Below the pieces are notes generated by a model. It saw only the letters and a list, made by a program, of their open reading frames with translations, made no database searches and had not been told where the DNA came from. Below are positions 7,799 to 24,792 of a stretch of DNA of 64,000 nucleotides, piece by piece; position 1 is the first letter of the stretch; every line of letters starts with the position of its first letter. The stretch lies in NCBI GenBank assembly GCA_031267645.1, contig JAIRYW010000008.1:1-64000 (forward strand). The letters are read 5' to 3'. A program made the position numbers and the translations under genes. The stretch is from Propionibacteriaceae bacterium (GTDB lineage: Bacteria > Actinomycetota > Actinomycetes > Propionibacteriales > Propionibacteriaceae).

Positions 7799-10648
7799 GG
7801 CCTCGGTCTCTTGGGCCCGGAAGAGCCGGAAGCGGGGCAAGAATTTGTCCCAGTCGATCGAGTGGGCGTCGATCTCGGGCCCGTCGATGCAGGCGTGCTT
7901 GCGCACCAGCTTGCCGTCGACCAGGACCGGGACCATGCAGGCGCCGCACATGCCGGTGGCGTCGACCATGATCGAGTTCAAACTGGCCACCGTCTTGACC
8001 CCGTAGCCCCGGGTCAGCTCGGTGACCGCCCGCATCATCAAAGGCGGGCCGATGGTGACGACCTCGGCGATGGGGCGGCCGGTCCCAGCCTGGGCGGCCT
8101 CCAGCATCGGCTGCAGGGCGGTGGTGACGAAACCATGCACGCCGAAGGAGCCGTCGTCGGTGGCGTAGACCACCTCCAGCTGGTCGCCGAACTCGGCCTG
8201 GAGTTGAGGCACCCGTTCGCCCGGGCCGACCCAGAACATCAGTTCCTGGTTGCGGAAACCAGAGATCAAGGTGACATGGTTGCCCAAACGCAGGTGTTCG
8301 CGCATGATGGGGTGGACCGGCGGCAGGCCCAACCCGCCGGCGGTGAAGACGACCGTGGCGGCGGCGTCGTAGCGGTGCAGCTGGCTGGGCTGGCCCAAGG
8401 GGCCGGCGATGCCGGCGAAAGCCTGGCCCGGCTCCATCTGGTTGATACCGAGGCTGGAGGCGCCCATGCCCTGGACGGCCAGAGTGACGGTGCCGGCCGA
8501 GACGTCCCAGTCGGCCAAGGTGAGCGGGATCAGCTCCCCCTTCTCGGTCGGCAGGACGCGGACGAACTGGCCGGCGCGGGCCGCAGCGGCGATGGCGGGG
8601 GCCCGGACGGTGAACTCCTCGATGCCCGAGGAGAGGTGGCGCTTGGCCACGATGACCGGCGCGGCGGCGGCCCGCTCGCTATACCGCAGGGCGCCGGCCA
8701 CCTGTTCGGCCACTTGCTCGGGCGAGGCGTCCAACTGGCGCAGGATCTCGCGGGCGGCGGCCTGACCGTCACCGGCCGCCCGGATGGCGGTGGAGCCGCC
8801 GCGGGCGGCGTCGCCGCCGGAGTAGACCGCGTCCAAGCTGGTCTGTTGACTGCCGGGCTGGCGCAACTCGATGGCGCCCCGGCCGCTCACCCGCAGAGCC
8901 GGCTCGGAGTCTTTGATGATGGGATTGGCCGAGTTGCCCAAGGCCATGACGACCAGGTCAGCCGGAATCTCCTCCTGCCGTCCGGTCGCCACCGGGCGCC
9001 GACGACCGGATTGGTCCGGCTCGCCCAGCGCCATGACGTCGAGCCGGGCGGCGGTCACGAAACCAGTCTCATGGTCGCCCAGGAATTCCACCGGAGAGCG
9101 CAACTGGGCCAGACCGACGCCCTCCTCCAGAGCGTGCTCCAACTCCTCCACCCGGGCCGGCATCTCAGCTTGGGTGCGGCGGTAGACGATGGTGACCTGG
9201 CCGCCCAGACGACGGGCGGTGCGGGCGGCGTCCATGGCCGTGTTGCCGCCGCCGACGACCAGGACCTGACGACCGGCCACCTCGGGCAACGGGGTCTCGT
9301 AGTCCGGGTCGTGGGCCCGCATCAGGTTGACCCGGGTTAGGAACTCGTTGGCGCTCATGACATTGAGGAAATGCTCGCCCGGCACGTTCAGGAACTGGGG
9401 CAGCCCGGCCCCCGAGCCGACGAAGACGGCCTCGAAACCAGCCTGGCGCAGGTCAGCCAGACTGGCCGTCTTGCCGACCACGAAGTTGGTCACGAAACGC
9501 CCGCCCAGCAGCTTGATCTTGGCCACCACGTCGTCGATCAGCTGGTTGGGCAGACGGAACTCCGGGATGCCGTAACGCAAGACCCCGCCCAGGGCGTGGA
9601 AGGCCTCGAAGACGGTCACCGGGAAGCCCTCGCGGGCCAACAGATAAGCGCTGATCAGACCGGACGGGCCGGACCCGACCACCGCCACCGGCGGCTTGGC
9701 GGCGACCTGCCAGGGGTTGGGCCAGTCGGCCAGGCGGACGGCGTCGGCGCCCGGATTGACCCGCTTGTCCCACTCCGGCAGGAACCACTCCAGCTGGCCG
9801 ATCGACATGGCGTGCTTGTGCAGGCAGACGCCCTGGCACTGCAACTCCTGGGGGCAGACCCGGCCGGTCACGTCCGGCAGCGGATTGCAGGACTCCAGCA
9901 TGGCCAAAGCCTCGGCGAAGTGGCCGGTGCCGATCAGCTCGAACATGCGCGGGATGTGGATCTGGACCGGGCAGCCGCCCTTGCGCTCCTCGACGCCGTC
10001 TTTGCGGTGCAGCAGGACGCCCAGCTCGCAAGGCGATTCGGCGCACTGCTTGTCGCGCAGGGCCTCCAGCCAGACCAGCAGCTCGACCTCGCGCAGGCTG
10101 TAACCCAGGTCGAGGTAGCCCAGATAGCCGGTGTTGACCAGATCGAAGTCTTGGTCGCGCTGGCGGGGCTCCCGGATGTGGGGCGGAATGCCGGTGCTGG
10201 CCGGCCACCCGACCGAAAGATCCTTGAACAGCGGGTAGCGCTCCTGCAAGTGCTCGTCCAAGCCTTGGATGAAACGCCGTTTGCGACCGACCGGCAGCCG
10301 CCAAAGGAAACGCATGAGGGCGGCGCTGGCGTCGTCGTCACGCAGCAGGATCTGCCACAGCCGGTGGGTGAACTGACGCGACAGGGGCTGGCCGGTGCGG
10401 AACTCGGCCGCCACCGCCGCCATGCCCTGGGCGATGAACATGTCACGGAAGACCCGCGGCTCGGCCACCAGCTGGCGCTCCAACAGCTTGAGCTGCTCTT
10501 GGAAGGCGGTCACGCCCGGGCTGGAGCCGAGCTGGGCGACCTGGTCCACGACCTGGTCCAGAGCCATCCGGGCGGAGTCCCAACGGCGCACGTCGGCTTG
10601 GCTGGTGGCGTCGGCCTGAGGCGGCCGCGGCCGGGCCGGCGCGGTCAC
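7775..10648 (-). CDS. fused NfnB-NfnA-like FAD/NAD(P) iron-sulfur oxidoreductase
   Basis: A 957-residue cytosolic flavoprotein. Residues 1-190 are a helical region I do not recognise. Residues 200-290 hold the GltD-type iron-sulfur module (Cys 202, 207, 226, 254, 265, 271, 275). Residues 318-640 hold two Rossmann folds: FAD at VVGSGPSG (about 323-330) and NAD(P) at VVGGGNTAMDAA (about 464-475). From about 660 there is a PyrK/ferredoxin-reductase-like FAD-NAD domain ending in MVDATGMCGAC (Cys 901, 904, then 920), where Asp replaces the first Cys as in NfnA. This is the NfnB+NfnA (SudAB) set fused in one chain, suggesting ferredoxin:NADP+ oxidoreduction, possibly electron-bifurcating. It overlaps the upstream NifJ-like gene by 4 nt, so it probably reoxidises that enzyme's ferredoxin. 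Confidence 0.8.
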   Translation of the reverse strand: MTAPARPRPPQADATSQADVRRWDSARMALDQVVDQVAQLGSSPGVTAFQEQLKLLERQLVAEPRVFRDMFIAQGMAAVAAEFRTGQPLSRQFTHRLWQILLRDDDASAALMRFLWRLPVGRKRRFIQGLDEHLQERYPLFKDLSVGWPASTGIPPHIREPRQRDQDFDLVNTGYLGYLDLGYSLREVELLVWLEALRDKQCAESPCELGVLLHRKDGVEERKGGCPVQIHIPRMFELIGTGHFAEALAMLESCNPLPDVTGRVCPQELQCQGVCLHKHAMSIGQLEWFLPEWDKRVNPGADAVRLADWPNPWQVAAKPPVAVVGSGPSGLISAYLLAREGFPVTVFEAFHALGGVLRYGIPEFRLPNQLIDDVVAKIKLLGGRFVTNFVVGKTASLADLRQAGFEAVFVGSGAGLPQFLNVPGEHFLNVMSANEFLTRVNLMRAHDPDYETPLPEVAGRQVLVVGGGNTAMDAARTARRLGGQVTIVYRRTQAEMPARVEELEHALEEGVGLAQLRSPVEFLGDHETGFVTAARLDVMALGEPDQSGRRRPVATGRQEEIPADLVVMALGNSANPIIKDSEPALRVSGRGAIELRQPGSQQTSLDAVYSGGDAARGGSTAIRAAGDGQAAAREILRQLDASPEQVAEQVAGALRYSERAAAAPVIVAKRHLSSGIEEFTVRAPAIAAAARAGQFVRVLPTEKGELIPLTLADWDVSAGTVTLAVQGMGASSLGINQMEPGQAFAGIAGPLGQPSQLHRYDAAATVVFTAGGLGLPPVHPIMREHLRLGNHVTLISGFRNQELMFWVGPGERVPQLQAEFGDQLEVVYATDDGSFGVHGFVTTALQPMLEAAQAGTGRPIAEVVTIGPPLMMRAVTELTRGYGVKTVASLNSIMVDATGMCGACMVPVLVDGKLVRKHACIDGPEIDAHSIDWDKFLPRFRLFRAQETEARRRHGLI

Positions 10649-13600
10649 TTGATGATCTCCGCGTCACAGGTGGACTTGACCCGGGCGCAGCGCCGCAGCA
10701 GGTCCTCGGTGACCTCGACCGTGTCCAAGGCCCCGGCGCGCAGCCGGCCGACCACCTGGGTGGCGCCGTCGACCACGATGGTGGCCTTCTCGAACAGCTG
10801 GGGCAGCTCCTGGTAACAGGTGCCGCAGTCGTTGCAACGCGGCTCGTCGGCCGGGTCGAGCCAGATCGGCCGATCGGCCGCGGCGGCCGGGGCGGCGGCC
10901 GGCGGGGCGGCCGGAGCGGCGGCGCCGGACAGGGAGGCGATCAAACCGGTCGGCAGCTCCGGGGCCTGGTCGCGCGACATGACCAGCGAGACCATGGCCT
11001 CGGCGATGGCGTCGAGCGAGGACTCCCGGGCGGCCACGGCGTCGGCGTAATCGGACTTCAACTGGTCGAGCTGGCCGCGGTGGGCCGAGGCCAGACGGTC
11101 GACGCCCTGGCCGGCCAGGTATTGCAGGGACTGCCAGTTGCGGCGACGGTCCTCGACCAGGGCCACGATGGACGCCGAGCAGGCCACCTTGATCAGCCGA
11201 CGCTCGGCGTCGGTGGCCCAGATGAAGGGGGTCCGTACCTCCCGCTGGGCCGGCGGCAGGTCGACGAACTCGGCTATCGGCAGGGCGTTCGCCTCTTGGT
11301 CGGAGTCGGCCCGCAGGCGGTGGAAGTGCTTGGCGAAGCGGCCCTCGCCGTACGCGAAGTCAGCCGGCGTGAGCGGCCCGGACAACAAGCCGATCTTACC
11401 GTCTGGCCCCCGGTGTTCGATGGTGCGGTTGGTCCAGAGCTGACCCAAATCAGGATTGCCCTCCAAGCTGAAGCGCTCCTGCAGAGACTCTCCGGCGCCC
11501 GGGTCGTGCACGAAGAGCGGGCTCATGCGCGACTCGACGGCCAACCGGGAGCGGGCGGTCGACTGGTCCTCCGGGGTGCCATTCTCGGTCCCGCAGGGCG
11601 TGTAGGTCACCATCAGGGCGGCCCCGTCGTTGTAGTCGAGCATGCGCAAGACAGTGGACAGATAATGCCCGTGCCAGGCGGTGGCGGTGGCGCAGCTGAA
11701 GACGTGGGGGTGGAAGACCGCCAACAAACCCAGCTCCTTGCGGGTCTCGACCTTGCCGTTGTGGGCCCAACCGTGCCGGGCCAGGTCGGCGTCCTGGCCG
11801 GTGTAGCTGGCGGTCGAAGCCTGGCCGCCGGTGTTGGAGTAGCCGCCGGTGTCGAGCACCACCGCTTTGATGGGCGAACCGGAGGCCAACACCCGCGACA
11901 GGGCTCCGAAGCCGATGTCGTATGCCGCGCCGTCGCCCGAGATGGTCATGACCGTAGGCAATAAAGCCTTCTCATCGGGGCTGAAGTCGCGCCAGGACAG
12001 CGGGCTCAGGTCCTGGGTCGGGTCGAAGGCGTCGGCCAGTTCGGCGCGGGCCTGGCGCAAGGCCTTGACCTCGTCGACGTACTGCGAGACGACGCCCTCG
12101 AACAGGCCGACGGCCAGCGCTTGGGCGTCCTGGAAGAGGGAGTTGACCCAAGGGTCGATGAACTGGGTGGACGGCATGGTGGAGGAGTAGACCGAGGAGC
12201 AGCCGGTCGAGTTGGCCACGATGGTGGGAGACGGGCCTTGGCCGGTGGGGCCGCCCTCGTAGAGGTAGAGGCGCGCCTCCAGCCGGGCGACCAGATCGTC
12301 CAAACGGGCCGCCCGCTCGGTCTGGTCGGCTCCCAGGGCGGCGCGCTGGACCGTCAGATCGGCCACCAGAGCCTCCAACGAGCGCAGATGGTCGCGCCGC
12401 CGGTCCTGGCCCACCGCCCGGGACAAGGCCGTGAAGAGGTGGGTGGCGGTGACCTCGCCGCAACCCCGGCAGGCCCCGTGGCCGCCGGTGATGGAGTAAT
12501 AGTTGGCGTGGTCGAGCAACACTCGCTTGGTGTCGCCGCCGGCTTTGAGGGCCTCGGCCGAGAACCGCTTGGGCGTGTTGGGCAGCCCGGTCAGAATCTC
12601 GAAACGCTCCTGCATACCGGCCACCGTGGTCTCGTCTTGTTCGACCGGGGTCAAGGCGTGGGGGCCGCAGACGTCGACGCACTGCAAGCAACCAGTGCAC
12701 TTCCAAGGGTCGATCACGACCGACAACAGACCACCCAGGCCGGGGCTCTCTTTCTCCACCGCCGTGAAGAAGGGCCGGGTGCGGGCGACCGGGAAGCGGT
12801 CCAGCTGAGCCAGGACGGCTTCCACGGTGACGGCCACGACGCGCTCCTCGGCCAAGGCCGGAGCCTCGGCGGCGGCCTGGCGGGCCACCTCGGTCAAAGG
12901 CCGGTCGGCGGGGTCGGAGCGCAGCAACTGACGGATGACGCCGGACCAGGTGTGGGACAGGGCGTGCCAAACCTCCCGCTGGCCGCTCGGCAGGTCGGCT
13001 TGGTCGATGGCCCGGTCGAGCAGGTCGTGGATCTCGTGGACGGTGTTGGGGATGGCCGAGTCCGGGCAGGCGATGGCGCACTCCATGCAACCGGTGCAAG
13101 CCACCGGGTCGAGCACGGGCACCGTCCGCCGGAAGAGGCCCTTGTCCTTGGTGGCGCCGGTGCCGATGGGAATGAAGAGCCCGGTCCCGGGCAAGACGGG
13201 GGCCTCGGCGATGGAGCCCTCCCGGAAGGGACGCCCCATCATCTCCTCGAAGTAGCCGGGGTCGAACAGCCCGGAGCCGCGGGCCGTGCCGACGGCCGGA
13301 CAGAGCACGGCCGACAGCGCGGCGCTCCGCCGCCGCACCGGCCGCGCAGCCGACTCGACCTGGACGAATTCGGGCGCGTCGTAATCGACCGGCTGGGTGG
13401 CCGACATGCCGTCGCGGATGACGGACATGTTCGACTCCACCACGGTCTCGCCCTTGCGGCCGAACTTCTTCTGGATCTCGGCTCGGACCATGTCCCGGAC
13501 CTGGTCCGAGCTGCCGCCGGCGGCGATGCGGTCGACGTTGCCGATGACGGCCCCGATGAAGGCGATGCCCATCATGCGGGTCTCCAGCTCCGGCGTGGGA

Positions 13601-15642
13601 GCGTGGCGGCGGGCCACCGAGAAGGCGTCCACCACCATGAATTTGATGGCGCGTTGGCGGATGGCCTGACGGGCGTACCCCGGCAGGTCGCGCCAGACGT
13701 CGAGCGGCGACCGGTCCGACTGCAAGATGAAGACGCCGCCAGCGGCCAGCCCCTTGAGCGGATTGGTGTGACGGAAGACCTGATGGTCGGGGGCGACCAC
13801 GATGTCGACGTCCTCCAGCTCGGCGTTGGTGATGAGAACCGGCTCGGGCGACAGGGTGATGTAGAAGTTGGTCGGCGCGCCCGACTTCTCGGAACCGTAC
13901 TTGGGGGCCGACTTGGAGTGCAGGTCGAGCATCCCGGCCAGGATGTCGGTCAACAGCTTGCCGGTGGCGACGGTGCCGTAACCGCCGACCGAATGGAAGC
14001 GGATGCGCAAGGCCTCCGGCGGCAGCAGGTCGGGGTTGTCCTCGGTGGTCAGGGCCATGGCCGCGGTCTCGGGGTAGGCCTGACGCAGCCGGTCCTGGAT
14101 CTGAGCCAGCTCCCCGGTGGCCTTGGCGTCGAAGAACTGGGAACCGAGGAAGACCAGCGGCGAGCGCTCGTCCGAGGCCATGTGACGGAAAGCCGCCACC
14201 AGGTGGCGGGGCTGGACGTCGTGGCCGCCCAAGCCGAAGACGGCGGTGGTGAGCTGGGGCAGACGGTCGAGGGCCGGCAGACCTGGGTAGGAACCGGCCC
14301 GCTCGCCGTTGGCGCGCGCCTTGAAGAGGGCGTTCGACACCAGCTGCGTCAAGGCTGTGTTGTCAGAGCGCTCCAGCACGGTGACGGCTTGGGCCCGGCT
14401 CAGGGCCTGGGCCAGCTCGGCCTCCGGGAAGGGCTGCAACAGTTTGACCGAGATGACGCCGACCTTGAGGCCTTGGGAGCGTAGGTGGGGCAGGACGGCC
14501 CGGACGTCCTCGGTGATCGAACCCAGTCCGACCATGACGTAGTCGGCGTCCTCGACCTGGTGGCAGTGGATCGGTTGGTAGTCCCGGCCGGTCAAGGCCG
14601 AGTAGTCGGCCATGGCCTGGCGGGCCAGACCGGGCACGGCGGCGGCGAAGTGGGTCATATGGTCGACCGCGCCGGCCTGGAAGTCGGGCTGGTTCTGGAC
14701 CGGGCCGGTCAGGCCGGGGTTGTTGGGGTCGACCAGCGAGGGCGCCAACTGGCGGGTGCCTTTGGCCCAGGCGTTGACCCAGGCCCGGCGCCACTGGCCG
14801 CGCAGATCCGGCGGCACCCAGGCCAAGGTCGACTCGACCAAGCCGCCCTGGTCGTCGGCCTCGATCCGGTCGGCCAAGGAGTCGAGCTGGGCTCTAAGAG
14901 CGGCCAGGTCGCCAGGGTCGAAGTCACCGGCGTGGCGGTCGAGGTAGTGGTTGAGCTGCCAGAGCCGGCCCTTGGCTCCGAAAAGGATCTCCTGGGCCAC
15001 GGTCGGACAGGGGACGCGCCCGGACGGATCGCCCAGGTACAGGCGCAACAGCTCCGGCTCGGGCAGACGGACCTCGCTCATGACGTGGCTGGTGGCGAAG
15101 CCGTCCATGGCGTTGGCCACCGGCACCAAGGACAGGGCCGAGAGGCGGTAGGCGATGGCGGCCAGGTCGGCCGCCTCCTGCTGGTTGGAGCCGAACAAGA
15201 TGGTGTAGCCGGTGGGGAGGAGGGAGTAGACGTCGTCGTGGCCGGCCATGACGTTGAGGGAGTGCTTCGAGACCACGCGGGCGGCCACTTGGAGGACGAA
15301 GCCGCCGATCTTCTTGCCGACCGTGACGTAATGCGACTCCAGGGCGTAAAGGATGCCCTGGGAGCTGGAGGCGTTGGAGATGTAATTGCCGCCGACTAGG
15401 GCCGCGCCCAAGGCGCCGGACTGGGCGGAGTGCTCGCCCTCGGCCTCGACGAAGAAGGGATGCTTGCCCCAGACGTTGAGCTGGCCCTCGGCCCGAGCCA
15501 CTTCGAAGGTCTCGGAGATCTCGGTCGAGGGAGTGATCGGATAACCGATGACACCGCCGCAGACGTGCTTCATGACGTGAGACACGGCGGCGTTGCCGCT
15601 CAGGACCTCTGGGATGCCGGGGTATATAAAGTTGTCAGGCAC
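10645..15642 (-). CDS. NifJ-like pyruvate/2-oxoacid:ferredoxin oxidoreductase, extended
   Basis: About 1665 residues against roughly 1170-1200 for ordinary NifJ. The domain order is a pyrimidine-type TPP domain (IGYPITPSTEISE, then SSSQGILYALE), domain II, a gamma domain (HSVGGYGTVATGK), and an inserted two-cluster ferredoxin (CTGCMECAIAC and CTGCLQCVDVC separated by about 120 residues instead of about 50). The TPP-binding domain follows (GGHGACRGCGE, then ISGDGAAYDIG and TGGYSNTGGQ). The C-terminus adds an Ala/Pro linker and a [4Fe-4S] motif, Cys 1603, 1606, 1609 and 1652. It should oxidise pyruvate to acetyl-CoA and reduce ferredoxin. The GTG at 15642 is chosen because conserved sequence starts there; an in-frame GTG at 15669 is the alternative. 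The ATGA overlap with the Nfn-like gene implies an operon. Confidence 0.85.
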   Translation of the reverse strand: MPDNFIYPGIPEVLSGNAAVSHVMKHVCGGVIGYPITPSTEISETFEVARAEGQLNVWGKHPFFVEAEGEHSAQSGALGAALVGGNYISNASSSQGILYALESHYVTVGKKIGGFVLQVAARVVSKHSLNVMAGHDDVYSLLPTGYTILFGSNQQEAADLAAIAYRLSALSLVPVANAMDGFATSHVMSEVRLPEPELLRLYLGDPSGRVPCPTVAQEILFGAKGRLWQLNHYLDRHAGDFDPGDLAALRAQLDSLADRIEADDQGGLVESTLAWVPPDLRGQWRRAWVNAWAKGTRQLAPSLVDPNNPGLTGPVQNQPDFQAGAVDHMTHFAAAVPGLARQAMADYSALTGRDYQPIHCHQVEDADYVMVGLGSITEDVRAVLPHLRSQGLKVGVISVKLLQPFPEAELAQALSRAQAVTVLERSDNTALTQLVSNALFKARANGERAGSYPGLPALDRLPQLTTAVFGLGGHDVQPRHLVAAFRHMASDERSPLVFLGSQFFDAKATGELAQIQDRLRQAYPETAAMALTTEDNPDLLPPEALRIRFHSVGGYGTVATGKLLTDILAGMLDLHSKSAPKYGSEKSGAPTNFYITLSPEPVLITNAELEDVDIVVAPDHQVFRHTNPLKGLAAGGVFILQSDRSPLDVWRDLPGYARQAIRQRAIKFMVVDAFSVARRHAPTPELETRMMGIAFIGAVIGNVDRIAAGGSSDQVRDMVRAEIQKKFGRKGETVVESNMSVIRDGMSATQPVDYDAPEFVQVESAARPVRRRSAALSAVLCPAVGTARGSGLFDPGYFEEMMGRPFREGSIAEAPVLPGTGLFIPIGTGATKDKGLFRRTVPVLDPVACTGCMECAIACPDSAIPNTVHEIHDLLDRAIDQADLPSGQREVWHALSHTWSGVIRQLLRSDPADRPLTEVARQAAAEAPALAEERVVAVTVEAVLAQLDRFPVARTRPFFTAVEKESPGLGGLLSVVIDPWKCTGCLQCVDVCGPHALTPVEQDETTVAGMQERFEILTGLPNTPKRFSAEALKAGGDTKRVLLDHANYYSITGGHGACRGCGEVTATHLFTALSRAVGQDRRRDHLRSLEALVADLTVQRAALGADQTERAARLDDLVARLEARLYLYEGGPTGQGPSPTIVANSTGCSSVYSSTMPSTQFIDPWVNSLFQDAQALAVGLFEGVVSQYVDEVKALRQARAELADAFDPTQDLSPLSWRDFSPDEKALLPTVMTISGDGAAYDIGFGALSRVLASGSPIKAVVLDTGGYSNTGGQASTASYTGQDADLARHGWAHNGKVETRKELGLLAVFHPHVFSCATATAWHGHYLSTVLRMLDYNDGAALMVTYTPCGTENGTPEDQSTARSRLAVESRMSPLFVHDPGAGESLQERFSLEGNPDLGQLWTNRTIEHRGPDGKIGLLSGPLTPADFAYGEGRFAKHFHRLRADSDQEANALPIAEFVDLPPAQREVRTPFIWATDAERRLIKVACSASIVALVEDRRRNWQSLQYLAGQGVDRLASAHRGQLDQLKSDYADAVAARESSLDAIAEAMVSLVMSRDQAPELPTGLIASLSGAAAPAAPPAAAPAAAADRPIWLDPADEPRCNDCGTCYQELPQLFEKATIVVDGATQVVGRLRAGALDTVEVTEDLLRRCARVKSTCDAEIIK

Positions 15643-16015
15643 AGCGCACTTCCGAGAGAGAGAATTCACAACTGCGCGGCCCGTCGGCTGCTCCGATGAC
15701 GTGCCGCACCCCCGCTGAGGCCAGACCCTTGAGCCCAAGCGCCTGACTCCACCTGGGGCATCCAACAGCCTAGGGCGCCCAGGGCCGGGCCTGGACCAAC
15801 GTCCGACTTCCGCGCTGAATCGTGAGCAGATGCCCAGGTCCGCGCCCATTGGTGCGCCGGGCCCGGCCGGACGGTGGGAAGAAGTCGCTGTTACCTTCGG
15901 TCCGTCTGGCTGGAGTCAGAGTGGACAGGCGACACTGGTTCTGATGACCGGGCCGGCCCGCCGCCGGCTGTCCGACGGCGCTGACAGGGGACCGAACGAT
16001 GGATGTGACTGGCCT
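15643..16015. other. divergent intergenic region, nifJ-like / ECF sigma
   Basis: A 373-bp gap between two divergently transcribed genes. It must hold both promoters. A TTGTGAA motif (15664-15670, minus strand) looks like one half of a Rex operator, but the second half-site is missing. No ORF here looks coding, and no convincing ECF-type promoter pair was identified. Confidence 0.4.
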
Positions 16016-16639
16016 ATGACTGAGCCAATGGGCGCGGTCGTCCCGGCGCCTCCCGGCGCGGTCGTCCCGACGTCCCCCGGCGTCGCCGCGACGCCGACCG
16101 CCCACCGGACGGGGTCGACCGAACCGTCGGCGGGCTGGGCGGCCGCCCGCACCGAGGCCGTCTTGGAGCGTCACCGCGATCTGGTCTATCGCATCGCCTT
16201 GACCCACAGCGCCGACCGCAGCGACGCCGACGACATTTTCCAAGAGGTCTTCTTGACCTATCACCGTAAACAACCGGATTGTCGGGACGAGGACCACCGT
16301 CAGGCCTGGCTCATCACCTGCGCCCTGAACTGCGCCCGCCGGGTCGCCACCAGCTCCTGGCGGCGACGGGTGGGACCGCTCGACCCCGCCGCGCCGGACC
16401 CGGTCGCGCCCGAGCCCTTCACCTTCCAGACCGAGCGTCAACAGATCTTGTTCCAGGCCCTGAGCGACCTGCCGGAGACCTACCGCTCAGTCATCCACCT
16501 GTTCTACTTCGACGATCTGCCAGTGGCGCGGATCGCCCCACTGCTGGGCTTGGAGGCCGGCGCGGTCAAGATGCGACTGAGCCGCGGTCGGGCCCTGCTG
16601 CGCCAACGATTACAAGGATGGTTTTCCGATGAAGGATGA
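16016..16639 (+). CDS. ECF-type RNA polymerase sigma factor
   Basis: A 207-residue sigma-70 family protein. Region 2 (LVYRIALTHSADRSDADDIFQEVFL) binds core RNA polymerase and the -10 element. Region 4 (LPETYRSVIHLFYFDDLPVARIAPLLGLEAGAVKMRLSRGR, given here only by its ends as LPETYRSV and KMRLSRGR) binds the -35. The ATG at 16016 gives a 45-residue Pro/Thr-rich leader; an ATG at 15944 is also possible. The stop overlaps the next gene by 11 nt, so the two are co-translated and the downstream membrane protein is probably its anti-sigma partner. Confidence 0.85.
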   Translation: MTEPMGAVVPAPPGAVVPTSPGVAATPTAHRTGSTEPSAGWAAARTEAVLERHRDLVYRIALTHSADRSDADDIFQEVFLTYHRKQPDCRDEDHRQAWLITCALNCARRVATSSWRRRVGPLDPAAPDPVAPEPFTFQTERQQILFQALSDLPETYRSVIHLFYFDDLPVARIAPLLGLEAGAVKMRLSRGRALLRQRLQGWFSDEG

Positions 16640-18773
16640 GGCGAGAGACGACCCGATCAAGGCCGCGCTGGACGACTTGACCCCCCAGATGACTCCAGCC
16701 CCGGAGCTGACGGACCGACTGCTCCAACGCCTGGCCCAAGAGCCGGACGTCGAGCCGGGCGCGGCCCCCGGTACCGACTGGCCGGGCGCCGCTCCCCTGG
16801 CCCGACCCGGGCCCACCGTCGGACCCCGAGCCCGGCCCGACTCAGCTGGTCGAGGTCCCCGCTGGCCGGGCGGTCGGCCTAGGCCCGCCGGCCGGAGCCG
16901 TCCGCGGGGCTTGCTCCCGACCGGTTTGGCGACCGGGTTGGCGGTCGGACTGGCCGCCGTCCTAGGCCTGCAAGCCCCGGCCGGGACCGAGCCGGTGGCC
17001 GAGATCCCGTTCGTGACGGCGGCCCCGGCCCCGAAGGCGGAGGGGCCCCTGACCGGACCGTCGAACTACCAATCGATCTACGAACGGCTGGCCGGTCTGA
17101 GCAACGCCGTCGTCGGGGGCAGTGGTGGCGGCGCCGTCGGCGCCACGGCCGATGGATCAGCCGAGTTGTCCTTCGGCGGCGGCGTCGTACCCACCGCCGC
17201 CTCCGGCACCAATGTCCAAGTCGCCGACATCGACGAGGGCGACCTGGTCAAGACCGACGGCCGGATCATCTTCGTGGCCAACGGCAGTCGGGTGGCCCTG
17301 TTCGAGGCGGCCGGGCCGGCCACCCGACAACTGTCCGGGATCGATTTCGGCTCCCAGACCGGCCCGGCCCCGACCAGCCAGGTGCTCGACCTGATGGTCT
17401 GGCAGTCCCGTCTGGTCGTTTTCCTGCACGAGTACGTGGCCCAGGAGATTCCGACCAGCCGGGACGACTTCGCCTACGTCTATTACCAGGCCGCCAACAC
17501 CCGTACCTTGGTCTACGACGTCTCCGACCCGACCCAGCCCGACCTGGTGGTCGAGTTCGCCCAGAGCGGGGCGTACCAGGCCTCGCGCCTGTCCGGCTCC
17601 TCGCTCTATCTGCTGACGAACCACCAGATCCTGGGCCCGATCGATCCGAACGCTCCGGACAGTTTCGTGCCCCAGGTGTCCGGCCCCCCAGGCCGCCAAT
17701 TGGTGCCGCTGGAGGACATCCACGTCATGCCGCGTGTGAGCCAGCCGACCTACGCCGTGGTCAGCGCCATCGACCTGGCGGAGGGCCGCCGGCTGGGCCA
17801 AGAGTCGGTCTTGGGCGGATCGGGCCCGATCCACATGACCGCGGACAACCTCTATCTGACTACGGTCGACGACGACCGAGAGCTGATCCTGGGGGGCTTC
17901 TCCGACATGGCCTGGCTCCCGCCCAGCACCACCTATCTGGTGCGCCTGGCTTTGGCCGATGGACCCCAGGTGGCGGCGTCCGGCCAGGTCGAAGGGGTGT
18001 TGAACGACCAATTCTCCCTGGACGAGCACCAGGGCAGCCTCAGAGTCGCGACCACCGTCTTCGAGGAGTGGGAGCTGGGCTGGCGCCCGCGACCCCAGTT
18101 GTCGGTCTTCGATCAGGACTTGAACCTGGTCGGCTCGATCCCCCACCTGATCGAGAATGAACAGATCCAAGCGGTCCGCTTCATGGGCGAGACCGGCTAC
18201 GTCGTGACCTTCCGGCAGGTCGATCCCTTGTTCAGCCTGGATCTGAGCGATCCGACCCAGCCGACGGTCCTGGGCGCCCTTGAGATCCCCGGCTTCAGCG
18301 ATTACCTCCACCCTTGGACGGACGACCTGCTGGTGGGCTTCGGCTACAACGGCGACCAGACCGGCCTGACCTCCGGACTGAAGTTGTCTTTGTTCGATCT
18401 GGCGGACCCGGCGGCGGTCAGCGAGCTGGCGACCGAGTCGATCGACTACGACTCCTCGGAGGCGCTGCAAAATCATCACGCCTTCTTCGCCAGCCTGGAG
18501 CAGGGCCTGATCGGCTTCCTGGTCGAGCGCTGGACGATGTACGACGACCACGGCGTCCAAACTGACGGCGCCTGGCACTATCTGGTCTACCAGGTCGACC
18601 CGGTGGCCGGCTTCCAGCTGCGTCAGACGATCGACTTGACCGATCTGGTCGACCCGGCCGAACCCAGCCTGAGCGTGCGCGGCCTGGTGCTGGGCGACCA
18701 CTTCTATCTCTGCGCCCCCAGCACGATCCAGGTCTTCGAGCTGGACGCCTTCCGCAAGGTCGGCCGAGCCTAA
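16629..18773 (+). CDS. membrane-anchored beta-propeller protein, probable anti-sigma
   Basis: A 714-residue protein. The cytoplasmic N-terminus (1-93) starts with a helical Asp/Glu-rich piece (KAALDDLTPQMTPAPELTDRL) and a Pro/Arg-rich linker. A single membrane helix lies at about 94-114. The outside part is a Beta_propel domain (PF09826-like) beginning with NVQVADIDEGDLVKTDG at about 195, followed by repeated blades (LVYDVSDPTQPDLVVEF, SLDLSDPTQPTVLG). The 11-nt overlap with the ECF sigma gene and this topology suggest an anti-sigma factor whose external sensor is the propeller. The propeller family is clear. The anti-sigma role is inferred, because the N-terminus lacks a zinc-finger motif such as HxxxCxxC. 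Confidence 0.75.
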   Translation: MKDEARDDPIKAALDDLTPQMTPAPELTDRLLQRLAQEPDVEPGAAPGTDWPGAAPLARPGPTVGPRARPDSAGRGPRWPGGRPRPAGRSRPRGLLPTGLATGLAVGLAAVLGLQAPAGTEPVAEIPFVTAAPAPKAEGPLTGPSNYQSIYERLAGLSNAVVGGSGGGAVGATADGSAELSFGGGVVPTAASGTNVQVADIDEGDLVKTDGRIIFVANGSRVALFEAAGPATRQLSGIDFGSQTGPAPTSQVLDLMVWQSRLVVFLHEYVAQEIPTSRDDFAYVYYQAANTRTLVYDVSDPTQPDLVVEFAQSGAYQASRLSGSSLYLLTNHQILGPIDPNAPDSFVPQVSGPPGRQLVPLEDIHVMPRVSQPTYAVVSAIDLAEGRRLGQESVLGGSGPIHMTADNLYLTTVDDDRELILGGFSDMAWLPPSTTYLVRLALADGPQVAASGQVEGVLNDQFSLDEHQGSLRVATTVFEEWELGWRPRPQLSVFDQDLNLVGSIPHLIENEQIQAVRFMGETGYVVTFRQVDPLFSLDLSDPTQPTVLGALEIPGFSDYLHPWTDDLLVGFGYNGDQTGLTSGLKLSLFDLADPAAVSELATESIDYDSSEALQNHHAFFASLEQGLIGFLVERWTMYDDHGVQTDGAWHYLVYQVDPVAGFQLRQTIDLTDLVDPAEPSLSVRGLVLGDHFYLCAPSTIQVFELDAFRKVGRA

Positions 18774-18846: not shown

Positions 18847-19302
18847 TCAGTTGGATTGGACGCTGGCGTCGATGGTCCCGCGGGGCACCACCCAGTGCGC
18901 CAAAAGCCGGGGCTCCACTTCGGACAGGTGATCGAAATCACTGTCGTAATGCACCACCACAACCTCTTGGGTCTGGTCTGAGTGATGTATGGCGGTCGCG
19001 GCGATTTGGAGGTCCGAGACGCCGACGGCGCGGCCTTTTCCGACCTGGAACAGCTTCCGTTGCAGATCGATGGCGATGTCGGCGATCTCACGCGTCAGCG
19101 GTAGGAACACCACCCCCAGCGCGAAGGCGACCATCCGTACATGTTCGCTCAGGCTCCTCGCGGAATAGCCCTGTTCCAGCACGCTGGGCAGGCAATTCGC
19201 CAGTTCGCCGGTCTCGAGGAGCCGGCCGACCGCATCGGCCACGTCATCGCTGAGGTGGACGCGCCCCCAGACGGAGTTGTCGACCAAATAGAGGCGTTTC
19301 AC
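18847..19302 (-). CDS. vapC: VapC-type PIN-domain toxin
   Basis: A 151-residue PIN ribonuclease. Motifs are YLVDNSVWGR (first acidic residue), the central SVLEQGYSAR, VSDLQIAATAI and VVHYDSDFDHLSEV, so the four expected acidic positions are present. It overlaps the antitoxin stop by 4 nt (ATGA), the usual antitoxin-toxin order. It is predicted to cleave RNA when the antitoxin is degraded. Length is normal and the gene looks intact. Confidence 0.85.
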   Translation of the reverse strand: MKRLYLVDNSVWGRVHLSDDVADAVGRLLETGELANCLPSVLEQGYSARSLSEHVRMVAFALGVVFLPLTREIADIAIDLQRKLFQVGKGRAVGVSDLQIAATAIHHSDQTQEVVVVHYDSDFDHLSEVEPRLLAHWVVPRGTIDASVQSN

Positions 19303-21388: not shown

Positions 21389-21948
21389 TCCACGATCGTG
21401 ACAAGAAACAGTTGGATAGGGCGTCGTCACGCTATACCAAGATATTGAGAATCCCTCTCCGGCTAGGCATTGGAGAGCACGCTGCTGAAGGTTCTCCCAT
21501 CAGCTGCCAACCGCCAAGATTGACACTCAGGCTGAATGTGGTCAAGCCCTGTGGGACGATGCGCGGCGGGGTCTTTCAGCTTGAAGTTAGGCCTTGCAGA
21601 CTCGCGGGTTTGTAGTGGTCGCTTTCCCTGAGGACATCAACGGCTTGGGATTAAGTATATAATAAGATGAAAGATAAATCTGAAAGCGGTAGCCCACACG
21701 CCCCGGACACCAACTCGGGCGGGACCGCCGCCTGATGACTACTCCGTTTGAATGTTTGGAAGGCGGTCACCTCGCGATGAAACGTACGAGAGTGTGTGGA
21801 CGTGTGTCACGATCGGGCCCTTGGTCTAGACCATACATTGAGACCGGAACCCCGGTCCCAGATTCACCGGCTGCTGCCTGGCTGCCCAATCACCGTGCCG
21901 ATCTTGCATCGGACGTACGCGCATGGCGCGAATGTCGCGAACAGGGTG

Positions 21949-21954
21949 TATCAT
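21949..21954 (+). promoter_or_regulatory. -10 box of the TIR-like gene
   Basis: TATCAT ends 7 nt before the ATG at 21962 and no ribosome site intervenes. This supports leaderless translation from that ATG rather than from 21923 or 21932. Confidence 0.4.
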
Positions 21955-21961
21955 TGTGCGT

Positions 21962-23080
21962 ATGAACGAAGACGAGGCAGCCGGGCAGAAATCCAGGCGC
22001 TCCCGAATCAGCCAGTCCGATATCCCCGCTCACAGCCTGGAGAAGGCTCGCCGGGTGCCTCAGGCATTAGCAGATAACTACGCCTCTCATCCGACGCGAC
22101 CGATTGATATTGCATCTGCTCTCAGCATGCAACCTTCGTCCGGAGGTTTCCGGGCCTCTCTCGGAGCAGCCATCGGCTATGGACTGACCGAGGGTGGCCC
22201 CAACGCTTCTGAAGTCAGACTCACGACGTTAGGTACGCGAGTCGTCACTCCTACTGAAGTGGACGACGACAAAGCGGCCCTCGCCGAGTCCGCATTGAAG
22301 CCGACAGTGGCGAACCAGTTCTACACCCGATATGACGGCTCGCCGTTGCCCCCCAAGAACATCGCACAGAACGTCCTTGCCACCTTGGGTGTGCCCACCG
22401 ATCGCACTAGCGGCGTGTACGACCTCCTGATTGAGAACGCTCGGTACGTTGGGTTCTTGAAGAGCATCAAGGATAAGGAGTACATCGATATCGGGAGTGC
22501 GCTTCGCAATCCCCCCGCTCCCGCTGTCGCTCCGGCCGTTGTCACGTCTACGCTAGTTGAGGCGGACCAACGCGAAAGCGATGATGAGATAAGCCCCGAT
22601 TCTTCAAGCTCTCCGCGAGCCATTGACTCAACCCCACCCAGAAAGAATGCTATCTTCGTTGGACACGGTGGAAGCAAGAGACCTATGGAGCAGTTGGTCA
22701 AGATCCTTGACGAGTACGGCATCCCCCACAAGGAGGCCATCGACGAAGCGAATCGGGCGCGCCCGATTCCACAGAAGGTGGCTGACACGATGCGGGAATG
22801 CGGTGCCGCGATTCTAGTGTTTACAGCCGACAAGGAATACTTTGACATGGAGGGCGAATCGATCTGGCGTCCGAGTGAGAACGTGTCCCACGAGCTTGGT
22901 GCGGCATCTGTCCTCTACGGCGAGCGAATCGTCGTGTTCAAGGAGAAGGGGATCGAGCTGCCCTCCAACTTCAGCAGCGTCGGTTACATCGAATTCGAGA
23001 AGGACCAGCTCAGCGACAAGGCAATAGAGCTCTTCCGGGAACTCGTCAGCATGAAAATCCTCAGTATCTCGGTCGGCTGA
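21962..23080 (+). CDS. TIR-like nucleotide-binding effector, candidate defence protein
   Basis: A 372-residue protein. The N-terminal part (about 20-175) contains two helix-rich, winged-helix-like segments ([18 protein letters not shown] ... [23 protein letters not shown] ... [12 protein letters not shown]). A Ser/Pro/Asp-rich linker follows at about 178-226. The C-terminus from 228 is a CAP12/PCTIR-type TIR-like domain (PF10137-like): NAIFVGHGG, the RARPIPQKV segment, AAILVFTAD, and NVSHELGAA with Glu311 at the catalytic NADase position. Such domains deplete NAD+ or act as cyclic-nucleotide-activated effectors in phage defence. The partner 11 nt downstream is a NYN nuclease. No nucleotide cyclase gene is adjacent, so it is not an obvious CBASS. 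Codon usage is less GC-rich than the backbone. Function is inferred. Confidence 0.75.
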
Positions 23081-23091
23081 AGAGATCTAAC

Positions 23092-23826
23092 ATGCGAGTC
23101 GGCGTATACATCGACGGATACAACCTGTACTACGGTGCCCGCGGTATCTGCGGGCGTTCCACACCCGGGTGGCGATGGCTCGATCTGCGCACAATGGTCG
23201 AGGACATGATCGCGGTGCGCTCGAAGTGGGGTGGCGTCGTGATCGAGAACGTCACATACTGCACCGCACGCATCAGCGGCACGAGCAACCCGGAGGGACA
23301 ACGCGAGCAGGATGTATACCTCCGCGCTCTCGCGCACACGAACTCGGCGACGCAGATCAGCTACGGCACCTACGTCGCCCGAGTCACCACGGCACCCCTG
23401 GCTCGTAAGGGACCTAATGGCAAGCCCATACTAGTCAAGTCGGACTGGCCGATCATGATCCAGGACAGCTCGGTCCAGGACGTTCCCGGCGCGACCTTCA
23501 TGGCCTCGGTAGCCCGCCGCGAGGAGAAAGGCAGCGACGTCAACGTCGCGTCACATCTATTGATCGACGTGCTCACAGGCGCCGTCGACGCTGCGGTGGT
23601 CATCAGCAACGATAGCGACCTGGCGTTTCCCATCAACTTTGCACGGCAGCGTGTGCCGGTCGGGCTCGTCAATCCAACCACTGGTGTGCGCGCGGGCAAG
23701 CTCGCCGGCGATCCCGCGGAGGGGGTGGGGAACCATTGGTGGACCCGACTCGAAAGCGCTGACCTGTACGAGCATCAGCTCCCCGCGATCGTTTCACCGC
23801 GCATCCGTAAGCCCGCGCTATGGTGA
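23092..23826 (+). CDS. NYN-domain (PIN-like) nuclease
   Basis: A 244-residue protein of the NYN/LabA-like branch of PIN nucleases. It shows [13 protein letters not shown] (Asp8), [14 protein letters not shown] (Asp149, Asp159) and [13 protein letters not shown] (Asp174, Asp176), so the metal-binding acids are all there. Residues 60-135 form a family-specific insert, and the C-terminus (about 205-244) contains a Trp-rich patch ([19 protein letters not shown]). The start ATG lies 11 nt after the TIR-like stop, and a terminator-like hairpin follows 35 nt after its own stop, so the two genes form a compact bicistron. It is predicted to be an RNase, perhaps the second arm of a two-component defence or abortive-infection unit. 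Confidence 0.8.
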
Positions 23827-24112: not shown

Positions 24113-24382
24113 ATGGGAACTGTCACAGTTTCGGTCGCGGACGCCGGGCGCAATCTGTCAAAGCTGATTTCGACCGCGGAGGCTGGTGACGACGTGATCA
24201 TCACCCGGCGGGGTGAGCCAGCGGCTCAGCTGACGGCGGCCCGGTCGGCGGCGGGCGCTTCGAGCAACGGACGGCGGGCGTCGGTGGTGCTGGCCGAGCG
24301 CCTGGCCCTCCGGAAACACTGGCCCACGCTGGCCCAGGTGGAGGCCACCATCGCCCAGGCCAGAGATGGGTGGGGCGAGTGA
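24113..24382 (+). CDS. Phd/YefM-type antitoxin
   Basis: An 89-residue antitoxin. The N-terminal Phd fold is clear (VTVSVADAGRNLSKLISTAEAG, then DDVIITRRGEPAAQL), which is a DNA-binding dimer. The C-terminal tail (RLALRKHWPTLAQVEATIAQARDGW) is the disordered toxin-binding part. The ATG at 24113 has AGGAG close upstream. Its stop overlaps the toxin start. The upstream sequence at 24060-24100 contains AT-rich near-repeats that could be its operator. Confidence 0.85.
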   Translation: MGTVTVSVADAGRNLSKLISTAEAGDDVIITRRGEPAAQLTAARSAAGASSNGRRASVVLAERLALRKHWPTLAQVEATIAQARDGWGE

Positions 24383-24792
24383 TCTACCTCGACACCGCTT
24401 TCTGCGTCTACCTGATCGAAGACCAAGGGCTGAGGGGAATACGGGCCCGTGAGCTGCTCGACTTCGACGAAGAGTTCGCCATCAGCCCATTGGTCCTGAT
24501 GGAGTGTCTGGTCAAACCCCTGCGCGATTCCAACACGACTCTGGAAGACGACTACCGGAAGACGCTCAAAGAGTTCCACCTGCTGGACATCAGCCCGGCG
24601 GCCTATGAGCGGGCGGCCCGCTTGAGAGCTGCCACGGGGATCAAGACCCCCGACGCCATCCATTGGGCGACAGCGACGCTGAGTGGTTGTGCGGAACTCT
24701 GGACTGGAGACGCCGCCTTGGCCGCCAAGTCGGCCGGGTTCGCGGTCGACCGATTCGCCGACGAACTATCGTCTCTGTCACGACACCGCTAG
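24379..24792 (+). CDS. VapC-type PIN toxin paired with a Phd-type antitoxin
   Basis: A 137-residue PIN nuclease: IYLDTAFCVYLIED (first Asp), SPLVLMECLVKPL (Glu), KTPDAIHWATATLSG (Asp) and LWTGDAALA (Asp) provide the four acidic residues. The GTG at 24379 overlaps the antitoxin stop as GTGA; a GTG three codons earlier (24370) is possible. The mix of a Phd antitoxin with a PIN toxin is common. It looks intact. Confidence 0.85.
   Translation: MIYLDTAFCVYLIEDQGLRGIRARELLDFDEEFAISPLVLMECLVKPLRDSNTTLEDDYRKTLKEFHLLDISPAAYERAARLRAATGIKTPDAIHWATATLSGCAELWTGDAALAAKSAGFAVDRFADELSSLSRHR

Follow-up and report, generated by a model that had tools for sequence, protein, structure and literature searches.

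The window analysed here, a stretch of 64,000 nucleotides from a Propionibacteriaceae bacterium (assembly GCA_031267645.1, contig JAIRYW010000008.1), carries on its forward strand a gene for an ECF sigma factor of 207 amino acids (16016..16639), followed by a gene for a membrane protein of 714 amino acids (16629..18773) that contains the propeller domain PF09826 and is a candidate anti-sigma factor. The 11-nt overlap of the two genes claimed in a preliminary description of this DNA is present in the open reading frame listing (16629-16639). The sigma start at 16016 is supported by a related locus, L009, since the homologous ATGACTGA start there has, by eye, a strong ribosome-binding site before it. 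Upstream of both genes lies a predicted ECF-type promoter (15890..15917, forward strand), recognised by conservation and pattern search, with GTTACC as the -35 element (15890-15895), a 16-nt spacer and GGAGTC as the -10 element (15912-15917).

Several neighbouring genes were seen in passing. Divergent from the sigma operon is a gene for a pyruvate:ferredoxin oxidoreductase-like protein of 1734 amino acids (10645-15849, reverse strand), and a closely similar gene occupies the same place in one relative (G017, locus L149). A PIN-domain protein (PF01850) is encoded at 18850-19302 on the reverse strand, convergent with the propeller gene, and another at 24113-24792 on the forward strand, behind a small antitoxin-looking open reading frame. 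At 21923-23826 (forward strand), a gene for a CAP12/Pycsar-type TIR-domain protein (PF10137, E 4e-14) is followed after 11 nt by one for an NYN-domain protein (PF01936, E 2e-5), and by their domains the two are possibly a small defence cassette.

The sigma factor and its membrane partner

The sigma protein matches Sigma70_r2 (E 4e-10) and Sigma70_r4_2 (E 5e-11) in Pfam, where no other sigma region was matched and the sole extra was a sub-threshold helix-turn-helix; its sigma domains are sigma2 and sigma4 only, as in ECF factors. It scores 77.4 bits with the sigma70-ECF profile TIGR02937 (cut-off 42.9), and its closest PDB chain by sequence is Mycobacterium tuberculosis SigL (E 1.5e-12). A profile search gave five sigma region-2 matches in the genome. 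A related sigma factor paired with a different anti-sigma elsewhere in the genome would have told against the proposed pairing; instead, the one further ECF factor that could be recognised, from open reading frames named by eye, resembles SigR and has an RsrA-like anti-sigma with cysteines encoded after it, so each recognised ECF factor has a candidate partner and the pairing survives.

In the 714-residue protein, the only PF09826 match of its genome, the propeller domain spans residues 192-706 (17202..18746; E 6e-130, 434.8 bits against a curated cut-off of 22.4). One transmembrane segment was found at about residues 95-114 by hydropathy (16911..16970), with an AlphaFold2 helix at 102-112, and the Arg/Pro-rich stretch that precedes it suggests an N-in/C-out orientation. 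The single membrane helix and large external propeller of the preliminary description are thus confirmed in their parts, with the orientation as the most plausible reading of the flanking sequence. The model of the whole protein shows helices at 9-21 and 25-37 (pLDDT 75-83), low confidence to about residue 101, the transmembrane helix, a further helix at 147-162 and then the propeller, with pLDDT mostly above 90. The cytoplasmic N-terminus had been described as helical, which holds for these two short helices but not for residues 40-101, mostly under pLDDT 50. Nor would residues 1-90 form the anti-sigma part, as had been proposed: the predicted two-helix segment covers just about residues 9-37 (16653..16739, motif MTPAPELTDRLLQRL), as indicated by AlphaFold2, a fusion model and an alignment of relatives (A2), and is followed by a disordered linker. 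We refer to the N-terminal part before the membrane helix as the tail.

The propeller fold was recovered by VIA-align with a best Z of 19.8 (3.3 Å over 331 residues), and a sequence search found no solved structure for PF09826. The structure search returned generic propellers alone, with a designed propeller as the top VIA-align match, and was set aside as a source of functional hints; no function for PF09826 was found in the family libraries or literature searched. The helix at 147-162 (17067-17114), between membrane and propeller, has a Y..IY pattern that is common in family members without a linked sigma gene too, and its position recalls that of the helices by which RsiV is shielded from signal peptidase.

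Sigma linkage and the N-terminal tail among relatives

Among 57 related genomes, the bacterium's own included, PF09826 occurs in 20, of which 15 belong to the same family and five to another family of the order. A sigma gene stands upstream of the propeller gene in 13 of the 15 (11 intact pairs and two on split contigs); of the other two, one is cut at a contig end (G014) and one has no sigma gene (G003). Because 13 of 15 genomes keep the sigma gene upstream, the pairing within the family is not a matter of chance. Ten of the 11 intact pairs have overlaps of 4, 8 or 11 nt (8 or 14 nt in L003), and L002 has a 1-nt gap. In the second family one locus, L018, has a different sigma gene upstream and a different propeller N-terminus, perhaps an independent pairing, and in the other four genomes a sigma gene upstream was not found. 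Reading by eye the genes 3' of the propeller in 51 of the 56 named pairs, we found no conserved third gene; the genes beyond the propeller differ between loci and repeat only among close relatives.

A scan of GTDB contigs extended the comparison, and the best 80 of at least 577 confirmed relatives were kept, a sample biased by a query built from sigma-linked proteins. In 57 of these 80 named relatives an ECF gene immediately precedes the propeller gene in the same orientation (56 recognised with an iterated ECF profile and L056 by hand); four are cut at contig ends and 19 are unlinked, among them two with a sigma gene farther upstream (L064, L104) and one with a sigma gene on the opposite strand (L060). 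Linked loci are mainly from Clostridia, with few from Actinobacteria (L056-L058, L107), and none of the nine Bacillales loci is linked. Going by database records, many carriers are Clostridia of animal guts. The linked share was also counted in two phylum samples, made up of the best-scoring loci from genomes with PF09826, which number 82 of 396 in the first sample and 27 of 119 in the second. In the window's phylum, where 81 of the 82 genomes are above the curated cut-off, two of 29 parsed loci (30 in all) are linked; around a Lachnospiraceae genome, none of 25 is, with the linked centre genome left out and three of the 29 loci not parsed. The preliminary description had called anti-sigma factors with a Beta_propel sensor unusual, which is fair in that they form a minority of PF09826 proteins in these samples, but they are numerous, as the 57 of the best 80 relatives show.

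The presence of a tail goes with the presence of the sigma gene. Before the membrane helix, linked proteins have a median of 61 residues (minimum 25, n=70), whereas unlinked ones have a signal peptide or transmembrane segment near their start, at a median of 5 residues (n=19; Mann-Whitney p 1.6e-10). Longer tails among the unlinked proteins occur in L104 (50 residues), L129 (30) and L064 (23); that of L104 contains the tail motif, as IPDSIRPENI, and the locus has a sigma gene lying 2.4 kb upstream. In a wider set, tails of at least 25 residues occur in 71 of 71 linked proteins, including L018 with its motif-free tail, against nine of 66 unlinked ones (Fisher p 2e-29, relatedness ignored), and eight of those nine start at the first ATG of their frame and may be overlong. 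On a quick tree of 143 propellers, which gave warnings on long branches and letter make-up, the linked/unlinked label changes ten times, at least six of them on starred branches. Tail goes with sigma in on average 4.9 of six independent pairs and the reverse is never seen, with a borderline sign test (median p 0.06, range 0.03-0.25). The genome in the family without the sigma gene, G003, provides a single natural case of loss: its locus, L020, retains the promoter motif, no sigma gene was found after it, and the propeller protein begins anew, the tail motif being absent.

Tails share a common plan, a short helix, a turn often with proline and a second helix, and fall into an actinobacterial form MxPSPELxxRL (alignment A2), a form IPESLxPxNIExxL in Lachnospiraceae and relatives (A3) and a form YxxAxDxI...ExLK in other Clostridia (A4). 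The actinobacterial profile scores clostridial tails as a group above shuffled ones (p 2.5e-7), and the reverse comparison gives p 0.04; most individual cross-phylum scores lie inside the shuffled range, and the likeness is weak. The A3 profile, run against 11 genomes, gave eight strong matches (E below 1e-5) at sigma-linked propeller proteins, placed by position and frame length and with five of the eight already in the profile, and no match in three genomes that carry the other tail type. No convincing match was found for Lachnospiraceae tails in PDB or Pfam or for clostridial tails in Pfam, and the Lachnospiraceae tail profile matched no solved chain by sequence. L036 alone scores weakly with an NCBIfam 'antisigma' entry, reaching 17 bits (E 0.0038) where the cut-off is 100.

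A predicted clamp and its promoter

An artificial fusion of sigma residues 41-203 with partner residues 1-45 was modelled with AlphaFold from an alignment of seven relatives with both parts and eight sigma factors. The model has a pTM of 0.85 and a mean pLDDT of 89, with no sigma-alone control, and the two tail helices reach pLDDT 89-95 as against 75-83 in the whole protein, the two alignments differing in depth (34 and 16 rows). By VIA-align, the sigma part resembles sigma factors held by anti-sigma factors that wrap around them, namely RpoE-NepR (5uxx; Z 16.0, 3.7 Å over 157 residues), SigW-RsiW (5wuq; Z 15.4, 3.6 Å over 145) and CnrH-CnrY (4cxf; Z 13.8, 2.8 Å over 142), and SigG1 (7qh5; Z 13.0) likewise matches the closed form. 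Fits to sigma with RseA (12.0 Å) and with RskA (9.6 Å) are poorer, and both domains align to RNA polymerase-bound sigma factors solely at about 22-28 Å. Foldseek agrees on the sigma matches; the tail is reached by few rows among the matches listed, and its fold was barely probed. The sigma factor is thus predicted in a closed arrangement, as in RpoE-NepR, SigW-RsiW and CnrH-CnrY.

In its short two-helix cytoplasmic segment and this same modelled arrangement, the pair would resemble CnrH/CnrY and RpoE/NepR. NepR is a soluble protein, and in the pair described here, unlike in CnrY or NepR, tail, transmembrane helix and large propeller belong to one protein. According to passages of PMC4598750, CnrY embraces the closed sigma factor with two helices and operates with a separate sensor, CnrX. 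Another useful comparison is RsiV, which together with SigV in Bacillus subtilis (DUF4179, ECF30) responds to ligand binding with cleavage by signal peptidase and then RasP (passages of PMC6066255). RsiV likewise has a short cytoplasmic N-terminus, one transmembrane helix and an external ligand-binding domain; that domain binds lysozyme, whereas here it is PF09826. In Pfam the propeller protein has PF09826 alone and no match to DUF4179 (PF13786) up to E 1, and among ten relatives DUF4179 gave one sub-threshold match (L080, E 0.11).

Before the sigma genes of the family, GTTACC-N16-GGAGTT recurs without gaps at most loci; L006, L010, L057 and L058 show a variant of it or nothing clearly alike. 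The pattern GTTACCTTN{13,15}GAGTY matches once in the bacterium's own genome, at 15890-15917, as does its reversed control, once. Across 19 genomes of the genus it matches once in each of ten (reversed control, 6), of which eight belong to the operon, a ninth precedes the L020 gene with its missing sigma partner and the tenth lies elsewhere. When up to two mismatches to the consensus are allowed, the operon promoter remains the sole match in the bacterium's own genome (control none), and the 19 genomes give 42 matches against 43 for the reversed control; 13 of the 42 sit at the operon or its remnant. Extra matches in G013 and G015 were rejected as new targets, being the sigma operon on split contigs, and no related sigma gene was found at the extra-match regions of G004 and G010.

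In Lachnospiraceae the sigma gene is preceded by a different motif, TGCAACA-N15-KACTCTWATA. Of 54 upstream regions, 14 contain a related pattern, as against a mean of 0.8 and at most 4 after mononucleotide shuffling; the match in L117 looks accidental. In seven genomes picked for the motif in their operon, the exact pattern matches once per genome, 7/7, upstream of the located tail (control 0), and up to two mismatches add 11 further matches, all with two mismatches, against 13 for the control. No second sigma target was therefore detected in the genus or Lachnospiraceae genomes at up to two mismatches, with consensus sequences derived from the operons themselves, which weaker targets may escape; the motif search for a larger regulon gave no excess over control patterns in either group.

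A conserved box, TGACAGGATGA, was also seen just 3' of the -10 element in L002, L004, L005, L011, L012 and L146, and directly before the propeller gene in L020, near 1109; it could indicate where the transcript begins or act as an additional regulatory site.

A probable two-gene regulatory module

The preliminary proposal of a sensor and anti-sigma pair is supported by the adjacency and overlap of the genes, the tracking of sigma by the tail, the absence of both in L020, the fusion model and the conserved promoter. We consider it very probable that the two genes form a self-contained ECF module, in which the tail would clamp the sigma factor, the propeller would trigger its release and the sigma factor would transcribe its own operon. 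In the predicted first step, the two-helix tail holds the sigma factor closed and inactive, as CnrY does CnrH or NepR does RpoE, and this sequestration is the best-supported step of the mechanism by the models. The propeller, which we infer to be the sensor, would then sense or bind something outside the cell and so lead to cleavage of the anchor, by a site-1 and then a site-2 protease, that frees the sigma factor. This second step is drawn from RsiV and from the presence of an M50 protease in the genome, which lends weak support because all 14 control genomes have one as well. Going by the motifs, the freed sigma factor would transcribe its operon from 15890-15917; since the search at this stringency revealed no other target, its main output would be more sigma factor and more propeller protein, and fresh anti-sigma would close the loop.

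Could the sigma factor simply make a surface propeller by co-transcription, with the tail an ordinary anchor without an anti-sigma role? The order of promoter, sigma and propeller fits this equally well, and in the two wider samples PF09826 proteins mostly have near-signal-peptide starts and no sigma gene. However, the tail accompanies an adjacent sigma gene with few exceptions, of which L104 has both the motif and a sigma gene within 2.4 kb, L020 lacks sigma and tail motif together, and in the models the two helices become more confident once joined to the sigma factor; we regard this explanation as improbable. Far more remote still is a four-helix class I anti-sigma domain of the RseA or RsiW type. 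Class I is the most abundant anti-sigma class, its domain (ASDI) having four helices in about 100 residues before the membrane (passages of PMC7406223), and SigW-RsiW is among the top matches of the sigma part, but the tail is predicted to have just two helices at residues 9-37, not four, with disorder from there to the membrane, and residues 1-45 contain no His or Cys and hence no zinc motif.

With sequestration by the tail as the preferred reading, a serious alternative for its last step alone is that the pair controls a wider regulon, for envelope stress or for the use of polymers, and that the remaining promoters of this regulon have diverged from that of the operon. ECF regulons often contain weaker sites, the motif search was strict, and G004 has two extra one-mismatch sites; against this, non-operon matches number 29 against 43 in the control for the 19 genus genomes, and 11 against 13 in the seven from Lachnospiraceae. 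We would put its chances a little short of even. A narrower version of the self-contained module, in which the operon is the single target of the sigma factor, the tail gauges the intact propeller at the surface and cleavage, shedding or depletion of the propeller frees sigma for its replenishment, is, as we judge it, rather unlikely. The propeller may also have an extracellular job of its own, with the loop controlling its amount, a possibility raised by the occurrence of export signals on stand-alone PF09826 proteins. These stand-alone proteins have the same propeller, often with a similar Y..IY helix before it, and mostly differ in their start, a signal peptide or one of lipoprotein type, and in lacking a neighbouring sigma gene.

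No report of an ECF sigma factor with PF09826 was found in the open-access literature, though the 2021 ECF reclassification, which lies outside that coverage, may list the pairing. Co-mentions were discarded as unrelated, in the passages available, and concern Leptospira regulators and lipoproteins and M. tuberculosis rv1057. WD40-like repeats are described as C-terminal extensions of the ECF57 sigma factors themselves (passages of PMC8999054), and the term 'propeller' is absent from PMC8103513 in a term search. What appears to be new is thus an ECF and putative anti-sigma pair, as predicted from sequence and models, that combines a class II-like tail with a sensor domain that we did not find described in such a role.

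The link to a sigma factor gives, for part of the PF09826 family, a handle on what those proteins respond to, and the anti-sigma role can be tested directly on the contrast between members of this one domain family with and without a tail. If the single-promoter behaviour holds, these pairs would be compact orthogonal regulators. Should the replenishment loop be true, the anti-sigma factor would be sensor and product at once, a wiring common to Propionibacteriaceae-like Actinobacteria and Lachnospiraceae with differing promoter sequences.
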